NCBI GenBank assembly: GCA_012728655.1 | Contig: JAAYEQ010000012.1 | Coordinates: 18,641-82,640, forward strand | Length of the DNA: 64,000 bases | Source: Syntrophomonadaceae bacterium | GTDB taxonomy: Bacteria; Bacillota; Syntrophomonadia; Syntrophomonadales; DTU052 | Direction: 5' to 3' | Shown: one piece after another, positions 49,391 to 53,418 of the stretch | How the letters are laid out: each line of letters opens with the position of its first letter | Position numbering within the stretch: the stretch's first letter is position 1 | Notes under the pieces: generated by a model | The model's database searches: none | What the model saw: only the letters and a program-made list of their open reading frames with translations | Told to the model about the DNA's origin: nothing | Translations under genes and position numbers: made by a program

Positions 49391-50662
49391 CTAGGTCCAG
49401 TAAAACAGGTAGAGGTAAACCATGGCCATCAAAATCGTAAGCAGCATGATGGGAAAGCCAATCTTCAGAAAGTCAATAAATCTTATGGGATTCCCGTACC
49501 GTTCAGCTATCCCGGCCACAATGACGTTGGCGGCTGCTCCGACCAGGGTCCCGTTTCCACCCAGGCAGGCTCCCAGGGCCAGGGTCCACCATAACGGCTC
49601 CACCGGCATACTGGACATGGTTTCCATGGCCTGTATCAAAGGGATCATGGTAGCAACGAACGGAATGTTATCCACAAAAGAGGAGGCGATAGCCGACAGC
49701 CACAGCACCAGCATACCGGTGTGGAGCAGGTTCCCACCGGTCAGTTCCAGCGCTTTCTCCGCTACAACCTCAATAACCCCTCTGACTTCCAATCCCCCTA
49801 CTATAATGAATAAGCCGGCAAAGAAGAAAATAGTCGGCCACTCCACCGTCAGCAAAGTTTCTTCAGGATCCTCGCCCGCTATTAGCATCAGGAGAGAAGC
49901 TCCCAGCAGGGCTATCGTTGCCGATTCCAGGTGTAAAGCCTGGTGCAGCAGGAATCCGACCATGGTTAAGCCCAGGACCGCCAGCGAACTCTTAAGAAGT
50001 TTCCAGTCCTTGATGTATTCCCTTTCTTCCAGGCTCATCAGCTGGTTAATGTTTTCCTCGCTGGCATCCAAATCCTTCCTAAAAACGAAGATCAGTATGG
50101 CAGTAATGACAACAAATATTACGATAACTGGCGGGGCCAGGTTGACCAGAAAATCCATAAAACCCAGGCCGGTGGCCCCACCAATCATGATATTGGGCGG
50201 GTCACCGATTAAGGTTGCAGTCCCGCCAATGTTGCAGGCCAGAATTTCAGTAAACAGGTAAGGAACCGGCGAGACGTCCAGGCGGTCGGCAATGGCAAAG
50301 GTAACCGGAACAATCAGCAGCACGGTAGTAACATTATCCAGCAACGCGGAAGCAACTGCAGTTATTACGGCCAATGCGGCCAGAATTGCCAACGGCTTTC
50401 CCCGCGCCACTTTGGCGGCTTTAATGGCCAGGTACTCGAAAACCCCGCTCTGCCTGGTTATACCTACAATGATCATCATACCTATCAACAGCCCGATGGT
50501 GTTGAAGTCAATGGCGTTCACCGCTTGTTCCTGGGATATTACGCCCAGGGCAATAGCAATCGCCGCCCCGACCAAGGCGATGATGGTACGGTGAATCTTT
50601 TCCACCACGATGAATATGTAGGCAACAGCAAAAATTCCGATTGACAGCCAGAACATCAACAA
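49391..50662 (-). CDS. ArsB/NhaD/SLC13-like ion transporter
   Basis: Multi-TM; ACNIGGTATLIGDPPNIMIG and GNGTLVGAAANVI repeats. Confidence 0.88.
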   Translation of the reverse strand: MLMFWLSIGIFAVAYIFIVVEKIHRTIIALVGAAIAIALGVISQEQAVNAIDFNTIGLLIGMMIIVGITRQSGVFEYLAIKAAKVARGKPLAILAALAVITAVASALLDNVTTVLLIVPVTFAIADRLDVSPVPYLFTEILACNIGGTATLIGDPPNIMIGGATGLGFMDFLVNLAPPVIVIFVVITAILIFVFRKDLDASEENINQLMSLEEREYIKDWKLLKSSLAVLGLTMVGFLLHQALHLESATIALLGASLLMLIAGEDPEETLLTVEWPTIFFFAGLFIIVGGLEVRGVIEVVAEKALELTGGNLLHTGMLVLWLSAIASSFVDNIPFVATMIPLIQAMETMSSMPVEPLWWTLALGACLGGNGTLVGAAANVIVAGIAERYGNPIRFIDFLKIGFPIMLLTILMAMVYLYLFYWT

Positions 50663-50765: not shown

Positions 50766-50812
50766 AAAAAAGAAGGCCCCCTCCAGTTATCTGGTAGTAG
50801 GGTCTTCCTTAT
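50766..50812 (-). terminator. Intrinsic terminator downstream of aminomutase gene
   Basis: Minus strand GGAAGACCCT ... AGGGGGCCTTCTTTTTT. Confidence 0.6.
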
Positions 50813-50879: not shown

Positions 50880-52178
50880 TCAGCCGGTCATCTCATCCTG
50901 ACCCGGTACTAACTCCTCTTCGTTGCCGGGCGGTTCATTGTAAACCTCAAAAACTCTCCCTTCCCAGGTCCTGAGGGTGACCACGTCTTCCTGCATATCC
51001 AGGATATAATTGGGCATTACCGGTATTTTTCCGTAACCGCCCGGCGCATTCAGGATATAAGTGGGAACTGCCAATCCTGAAGTATGGCCGCGCAGGGACT
51101 CCATTATACTCAACCCGGTACAGATGCTGGTCTGCCAGTGTCGGGTACCCCGAACATCCTTGGCATGAAAGATGTAATACGGCCGAACCCGAATGCGCAG
51201 CAGCTCATGATTCAGTTTCCTCATTATCGTGGGCGAATCGTTTATGCCCTTCAGCAGCACCGCCTGATTCCCCAGGACTACCCCGGCCTCCGCCAGCCGG
51301 CTGCATGCGTCACGTGCTTCCGGAGTAACCTCTAAGGGATGGTTAAACTGGGTATTGATATATATGGGCGGATAGCGACGGAGCACCTCGCATAATTCGG
51401 GCGTCACCCGTTGGGGAAGGGTCACCGGTGTCCTGGTGCCTATCCTCTTGATTTCCACATGGGGGATCCGGTGCAGTTCACCAAGTATCCAATCCAGGTA
51501 CTGGTCACTCAGCAGCAGTGCGTCCCCTCCGGTAATTAATACATCCCTTATCTCGCGATTCTCCGCAACATAGGCTATGGCTTCCGATATATCGCTGCTC
51601 TTTGCATGGTGGTCTTTCTCGCCGATATTGCGCCTCCGCTGGCAGTGCCGGCAGAACATGGCGCACTGGTTGGTAACATTTATTATCAATCGGTCAGGAT
51701 AGCGCCTGGTTACGCAAGGCGCAGGCGAAGTCATGGCTTCGTTCATGGGATCCAAGCTTCCCCCTTCATCCAGTTCCCGTATATCGGGAACCGCCTGGCG
51801 GAAGATGGGATTATCATGGTAATCGTCCGGCACCAGGCTCAGGTAGTAGGGAGATATGGCCCAGCGAAACAGCTTGCCAACTTTTTCTACCCGCTTCTTT
51901 TCCACTTCTCCCATACCCAGGATATCAGCAAGTACCCCGGCATCTTTAATCCGGTTCTTTAGCTGCCAACGCCAGTCATCCCAATCCTGAAGGCTGCCGC
52001 CCAAATAATCCAGAATCTGCTGCTTGCGGACTTCTGCTCTTTCATAAGTTGTCAAGCCGGTTTCCACAGCTTCTGCTTCCCTCATATACGACAGTGCATC
52101 CCGGCTCAATTGTTCAGCTCTTATCAAAGCCTGCTGCCTGATATCATCAACAGCCTTTTTCTCTCTCATGCGCATCAC
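50880..52178 (-). CDS. eam: Lysine 2,3-aminomutase family; predicted glutamate 2,3-aminomutase (radical SAM, PLP)
   Basis: CAMFCRHCQRRR radical SAM motif; PYYIFHAKDVRGTRH and YILNAPGGYGKIPVMPNY carry K and N where lysine aminomutase has the two substrate-binding Asp. Confidence 0.85.
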   Translation of the reverse strand: MMRMREKKAVDDIRQQALIRAEQLSRDALSYMREAEAVETGLTTYERAEVRKQQILDYLGGSLQDWDDWRWQLKNRIKDAGVLADILGMGEVEKKRVEKVGKLFRWAISPYYLSLVPDDYHDNPIFRQAVPDIRELDEGGSLDPMNEAMTSPAPCVTRRYPDRLIINVTNQCAMFCRHCQRRRNIGEKDHHAKSSDISEAIAYVAENREIRDVLITGGDALLLSDQYLDWILGELHRIPHVEIKRIGTRTPVTLPQRVTPELCEVLRRYPPIYINTQFNHPLEVTPEARDACSRLAEAGVVLGNQAVLLKGINDSPTIMRKLNHELLRIRVRPYYIFHAKDVRGTRHWQTSICTGLSIMESLRGHTSGLAVPTYILNAPGGYGKIPVMPNYILDMQEDVVTLRTWEGRVFEVYNEPPGNEEELVPGQDEMTG

Positions 52179-52310
52179 TCTCTTTCTCTATCTTTCTCTC
52201 TATGTAACTTTTGTTGCCCAAGGAAGATTACATTAGAAAGGCCCGATAGTCAGTAGATTCGGTTAGCAGTTGGCCGGAGGACTGATGATAAAATGATGAT
52301 AATTATGGAG

Positions 52311-52340
52311 AAAAAATTAACCAAAGAGCACCTTTGGTTA
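52311..52340 (-). terminator. Riboswitch expression-platform terminator
   Basis: Minus strand AACCAAAG-GTGCT-CTTTGGTT followed by AATTTTTT, between aptamer and coding region. Confidence 0.85.
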
Positions 52341-52367
52341 GTTAATGCCATGACTCAGGTCTCCCTT

Positions 52368-52488
52368 CCAACGCTTACGAGGTTAGCTGACGGGTTCGGG
52401 CCCAGGGCTAGCCCTACCGGAAAACCGGATTCACCCCTATTTGTTTGGGTCCCCCGCTCCCTGTTTCCAGGAATTCAGCGGTTTTGAC
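52368..52488 (-). ncRNA. c-di-AMP riboswitch (ydaO/yuaA class)
   Basis: Minus strand contains GGGAGCGGGGGACCCA, AGGGGTGAATCC, and CCGAACCCGTCAGCTAACCTCGTAAGCG, the hallmark ydaO consensus blocks in correct order. Confidence 0.93.
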
Positions 52489-52826
52489 ATAAAGTCATTA
52501 TTAGATTGTCAGCCGAGATAATTCATTGCATCTTTTTTGCAGACATTACATGGTGTTCCTGATATAGATAATATAATATTCCGGAATGTGATTAAACAAT
52601 ACCATACAAATCCGCAATCAGTCAAGAATTAAGCCGGTTTCGGGCCGCAAACGGCGATATTTCCACAGCATACCCTTGCAGGGTTATTCTTCCAATACGG
52701 CGGCATACCGCCTCAGAATCAGGTGGTTTTTTAACAGAAAAGTTGATCCGGTTAAAGGTCATATCATCCCAACATTCGGTATCAGGAGGGGAACCGACCC
52801 GCACATGATGCAGGCGGAATGGAAAT

Positions 52827-52881: not shown

Positions 52882-53418
52882 CTACTTTTCCACCAGATTG
52901 AAATCGGGTTCAATGGGCACCGTGGTATCCATATGTCCCAGTATGGACTCGTGTTTTTCTCCTTCCAGCAGGAACTGGACTTTTTCCACTCCCGGGAGTC
53001 CGGTTAAGGTATTGACAACGGAATATATGGTCATTATTTCTCCCGCCGACCCTCCTGGGTGTTCGGTCTGAAACTCTTTGGAGAAATCCACATAGGCCAC
53101 GTCATCAACAACCGTCACCGACAGCACCCTGGTGCCCTCGGGAATAGTAGGAACCGAACCTTCCTTCTGCGGTCCCTTGAGCAGTTCTTCAATTACCGCC
53201 GCCTCCAGAGACCTGTCTTTTTTGTCCACGGTTCTGGTCTCCGGAACCAGGTACATGGCGTCTTTATCTCCAAAGTAGAGGGTTACTGTGTCTTTCCCTG
53301 CGGACGAATCAGATTTTCGGTCACACCCGGTTAAACCCAACCCGATGACTAGCACCGTTGCCAGTGCCACCGCGATTGTACCCAGCCAGCCTCGTTTCCC
53401 CTTTCTGCCTTGATTCAC
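52882..53418 (-). CDS. GerMN-domain lipoprotein
   Basis: Lipobox GLTGC; LTLYFGDKDAMYLVPETR-type GerMN pattern, VAYVDFSKEF. Confidence 0.85.
   Translation of the reverse strand: MNQGRKGKRGWLGTIAVALATVLVIGLGLTGCDRKSDSSAGKDTVTLYFGDKDAMYLVPETRTVDKKDRSLEAAVIEELLKGPQKEGSVPTIPEGTRVLSVTVVDDVAYVDFSKEFQTEHPGGSAGEIMTIYSVVNTLTGLPGVEKVQFLLEGEKHESILGHMDTTVPIEPDFNLVEK

Follow-up and report, generated by a model that had tools for sequence, protein, structure and literature searches.

An RNA of the c-di-AMP-binding ydaO/yuaA class had been predicted to lie in front of an aminomutase gene of a Syntrophomonadaceae bacterium, and the question raised by this locus was whether the second messenger governs the synthesis of an osmolyte there. 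We have analyzed the locus within its window, that is, the whole stretch of 64,000 nucleotides under study, together with the rest of the genome and with related loci. The features found (Table 1) make it very likely that a transcription-terminating riboswitch of the Rfam family RF00379 controls a single gene, eam, whose product would make the compatible solute L-beta-glutamate.

Table 1. Features of the eam locus, in coordinates of the window.
Feature	Position	Strand	Basis
Candidate leader promoter: TTGTTT 52599-52594, 18-nt spacer, TATATT 52575-52570	52570..52599	-	by eye
c-di-AMP riboswitch aptamer (ydaO/yuaA, RF00379), complete	52357..52490	-	cmscan, 103.4 bits
Intrinsic terminator: 10-bp stem TAACCAAAGG/TCTTTGGTTA and U-tract	52311..52340	-	pattern scan and fold
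eam, predicted glutamate 2,3-aminomutase, KamA-family radical SAM/PLP enzyme, 432 aa from GTG 52178	50880..52178	-	TIGR04368
Hairpin and U-tract 3' of eam	50767..50810	-	pattern scan (stem 50784-50772)

The aptamer was matched over the full length of the covariance model (positions 1-134 of 134; E = 1.7e-23), with a score far above the gathering score of the family (38 bits). The consensus blocks quoted in the original prediction were found on the minus strand, and the check with RF00379 that it had proposed was clearly significant. No other Rfam family matched in the window, and a scan of the leader at permissive thresholds gave no further credible match beside RF00379. Many of the eam-linked aptamers in other genomes exceeded the consensus by 50-100 nt, which points to an insertion in one stem-loop; matches of 186-238 nt were obtained in L045, L059, L063, L066, L072, L075, L084, L087, L093, and others. 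The candidate promoter of the leader overlaps with an alternative (TTGACT 52625 / TATTGT 52601-52596), and a similar arrangement (TTGTTT-18-TATTAT) was present in a Syntrophothermus relative (L041); the consensus scan found two promoters vs. 3.4 expected, hence the basis for this candidate is weak. A gene for a GerMN (Germane) domain lipoprotein (52882-53418, minus strand) lies upstream of the leader and carries its own terminator-like hairpin (52851-52829).

The strong terminator expected downstream of the aptamer was present as well, its 10 pairs (52340-52318) being followed by ATTTTTT, with a folding energy of -10.0 kcal/mol. An expression platform thus separates aptamer and gene, and it is kept in relatives: a terminator was found in this interval in 43 of 52 related leaders, as compared to 64 of 520 shuffled spacers (12%). 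The possible start codons of eam (GTG 52178, ATG 52175, and ATG 52169) lie 133-142 nt past the U-tract, depending on the codon chosen, in agreement with the distance of about 130 nt previously estimated. A scan of the minus strand from the terminator to the ORF found no sigma-70-like promoter through which transcription could bypass the switch. Downstream of eam, a longer imperfect hairpin was also recognized by eye (GAAGACCC...GGGCCTTC). The hairpin with U-tract after eam and the hairpin after the upstream GerMN-domain gene indicate that eam is probably monocistronic. Just downstream, beyond the terminator-like hairpin, there is a gene for a transporter of the CitMHS/ArsB superfamily (49391-50662, minus strand), whose nearest named model, MamN, scored below its cut-off.

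The gene product is predicted to be a glutamate 2,3-aminomutase, as had been proposed, which would convert L-glutamate into L-beta-glutamate. It scored 664.4 bits with the glutamate 2,3-aminomutase equivalog model (TIGR04368, curated cut-off 650), and remained under the cut-offs of the lysine (475.7 bits; cut-off 525.4) and arginine (359.4 bits; cut-off 600) aminomutase models. The radical-SAM motif CxxxCxxC appeared as CAMFCRHC from residue 172, and the PLP lysine is Lys384 within GGYGKIP, aligned to the GGGGKTP motif of the lysine 2,3-aminomutase structure 2A5H, the sole solved homologue found. Lys340 and Asn377 of the eam product align with Asp293 and Asp330 of that structure. The Lys/Asn pair was present in 111 of the 111 eam loci in which both positions could be aligned (a few of them being one gene obtained through two collections), whereas five ablA-type paralogs of the same class had Asp at both. 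The characterized glutamate enzyme of Clostridioides difficile is reportedly marked by the same replacement of Asp293/Asp330 by Lys/Asn (Ruzicka and Frey 2007), and it also shares with ours the NCBIfam equivalog name.

Conservation of the arrangement was studied in 63 genomes of the class to which the window belongs, taking as eam those genes with matches of at least 600 bits (n = 42). The survey of co-occurrence that had been suggested gave a clear result: RF00379 was found 67-440 nt upstream, on the same strand, in 37 of these 42 genes, or in 37 of 39 when three genes that lie at contig edges or are fragments are excluded (G003, at a contig end; G014, with only 152 nt upstream; and G052, an N-terminally truncated match). 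In G031 and G039, the riboswitch before eam seems to be truly absent. By simple arithmetic, around two riboswitches in a 2.4-Mb genome would lie next to eam by chance at about 2e-4 per gene. In a separate set of named eam loci scanned with Rfam, 71 had 500 nt or more of upstream sequence, and 49 of these carried the riboswitch; the count becomes 51 of 73 when two loci with around 480 nt are included, the gene of the window not being counted. The bearers comprised Syntrophomonadaceae, Desulfotomaculaceae, Moorella, Desulfosporosinus, Carboxydothermus, Carboxydocella, and others; the pairing is therefore kept across many syntrophic and sulfate-reducing Bacillota. On the eam tree the riboswitch label changed nine times vs. 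19 when shuffled, so that the loci bearing it group together, and whole blocks without it fall in Desulfallaceae and in parts of Desulfosporosinus. This fits an old association followed by repeated losses, although gains are possible too. Since Desulfallaceae (the clade of L095, L096, L103, L106, L108, and L112, in which no c-di-AMP riboswitch was detected) and several Desulfosporosinus carry eam without it, eam and the riboswitch are not necessarily coupled. In one case (L127:395-1543, G050:C1) the riboswitch was followed by an eam-like ORF that lacked about 80 residues (query 293-371), the Lys340 region included.

The genome of the window contains five copies of RF00379, each of them adjoining compatible-solute genes: apart from the copy before eam, two stand in front of glycine-betaine transport clusters of OpuA/ProU-like type, one stands in front of an OpuC/OsmF-like cluster, and the fifth lies inside an ectoine-type transporter cluster, between the genes for an ehuD-like permease and an ehuA-like ATPase (L007:505-2484, G000:C36). 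The gene for the diadenylate cyclase DisA was also present, adjoining an ORF that by eye resembles radA, and a search for AblB in this genome found none. In four relatives of the class, ablA-ablB, for the synthesis of N-acetyl-beta-lysine, stood behind RF00379 (G044, G016, G029, and G033; AblB was identified by NCBIfam in the first and by gene order in the other three). At L126:244-4136 (G027:C113), eam (K/N), ablA (D/D), and ablB stood one after the other behind a single c-di-AMP riboswitch and seem to form one cluster that serves two beta-amino-acid osmolytes. In Moorella thermoacetica exposed to blue light, eam rose 7.7-fold and a glycine betaine transporter 3.7-7.6-fold (PMC7835215), a joint increase that a shared regulator would predict; two further Moorella loci (L098 and L115), other than the gene of that study, carried eam with the riboswitch.

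The direction of the switch deserves separate consideration. A search by duplex energy for an antiterminator against the left terminator shoulder found none in the leader itself, where 82% of shuffles paired equally well, nor any signal over the related leaders (mean z +0.13), and in the pseudoknot-free minimum-energy fold the terminator formed with or without the aptamer fold. A candidate long-range pairing between the right shoulder and the aptamer segments UAACC and GGAAGGG (-7.5 kcal/mol) was given no weight. Because no antiterminator was found and the terminator folds regardless of the aptamer, the assignment as a probable OFF switch is based on homology to the riboswitch before ablA, of the same class and layout, for which c-di-AMP-dependent termination was described by White et al. 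2022 (PMC9337991). The missing competitor of the terminator could also be read as the sign of a real aptamer that turns expression ON or hardly affects it. We consider this very improbable, given that terminators are kept downstream of the aptamer in relatives and that an aptamer standing apart from its terminator is the layout tied by the same authors to OFF switches, and verified for ablA (PMC9337991). Misassignment of the gene, which would then encode a lysine (or other) 2,3-aminomutase, could be argued from the narrow margin over the TIGR04368 cut-off (only 14 bits) and from the fact that the one solved homologue is a lysine enzyme; nevertheless, the lysine and arginine scores fall short of their cut-offs, both lysine-binding Asp residues are replaced while the ablA paralogs of the class keep them, and the genome has no ablB. 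The lysine score together with Lys340/Asn377 led us to reject a lysine aminomutase, and misassignment in general appears extremely improbable.

A different objection accepts riboswitch and enzyme as proposed but concerns the product: beta-glutamate might serve as a precursor (of beta-glutamine, or of a cell-envelope or secondary metabolite) or as a counter-ion of K+, so that c-di-AMP would control charge balance or another pathway. K+ is the classical target of c-di-AMP control, eam is apparently monocistronic and without a dedicated partner, and AblB is lacking in this genome. In methanogens, moreover, the anionic beta-glutamate pairs with K+ (PMC1224877). Against this, the four remaining c-di-AMP riboswitches of the genome all adjoin uptake clusters for compatible solutes, ablA-ablB stands under the same riboswitch in relatives, and eam, ablA, and ablB form one row in L126. 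We thus regard a role as precursor or counter-ion as unlikely, and the genomic context as favoring a function of eam in osmolyte synthesis.

The closest known system is the tandem Na+/c-di-AMP riboswitch before ablA in Dehalobacter sp. CF, switched OFF by c-di-AMP in vitro (PMC9337991). Both loci combine a c-di-AMP aptamer with a terminator, and both genes encode KamA-family 2,3-aminomutases predicted to act in the synthesis of a beta-amino-acid osmolyte or its precursor; they differ in that the locus of the window lacks the Na+ riboswitch and its enzyme is of the glutamate and not of the lysine type. The Na+ riboswitch (RF03071) was not detected in the leader by Rfam scan, nor among the 63 genomes of the class. 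Na+ and c-di-AMP riboswitches in tandem (RF03071 and RF00379) occurred directly before eam in an Ammonifex sp. (L072:1504-1873) and a Pelotomaculum sp. (L084:1441-1842), as has been published for the ablA of Dehalobacter. As compared with the ydaO/yuaA riboswitches of Bacillus subtilis and others, the aptamer is likewise of full length, but its target is an enzyme of osmolyte synthesis instead of a K+ transporter or a cell-wall enzyme. White et al. 2022 named eam among the targets of Na+ riboswitches (PMC9337991), and in a 2020 review the targets of ydaO/c-di-AMP riboswitches include 'synthesis and transport of osmoprotectants' (PMC7288161). In the open-access literature, a scope outside which older primary papers fall, no description of a c-di-AMP riboswitch/eam pair was found. 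Of the original proposal that c-di-AMP controls osmolyte synthesis, the link between riboswitch and eam stood on sequence grounds and the osmolyte role drew support from genomic context; its novelty is smaller than proposed, since the principle was published for ablA in 2022, although eam under a c-di-AMP sensor alone is not part of that work.

In the mechanism that we propose, a high level of c-di-AMP would signal a cell replete in K+ and free of osmotic stress; two molecules of c-di-AMP would bind to the aptamer, the terminator would form, and no eam product would be made. Under hyperosmotic stress c-di-AMP would fall, transcription would read through, and beta-glutamate would be produced and accumulate. 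This compound is known mainly from methanogens, and from few bacteria, and early NMR work in methanogens ruled out the aminomutase route (PMC1224877). On a broader scale, we lean, with some reserve, to the view that syntrophic and sulfate-reducing Bacillota possess a regulon dedicated to compatible solutes and defined by the c-di-AMP riboswitch, in which uptake (OpuA, OpuC, and Ehu) and synthesis (eam and ablAB) are shut off together; beta-glutamate, produced by a radical-SAM aminomutase, would be the main home-made osmolyte of these anaerobes. If this were true, it would provide glutamate 2,3-aminomutase with a physiological role; membership in the regulon already suggests osmolyte synthesis as the likely role of this little-studied enzyme. 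The control of osmolyte synthesis by c-di-AMP appears to be widespread and not confined to one tandem case, and Moorella, Desulfosporosinus, and Syntrophomonas are genera where the control of eam could be examined.
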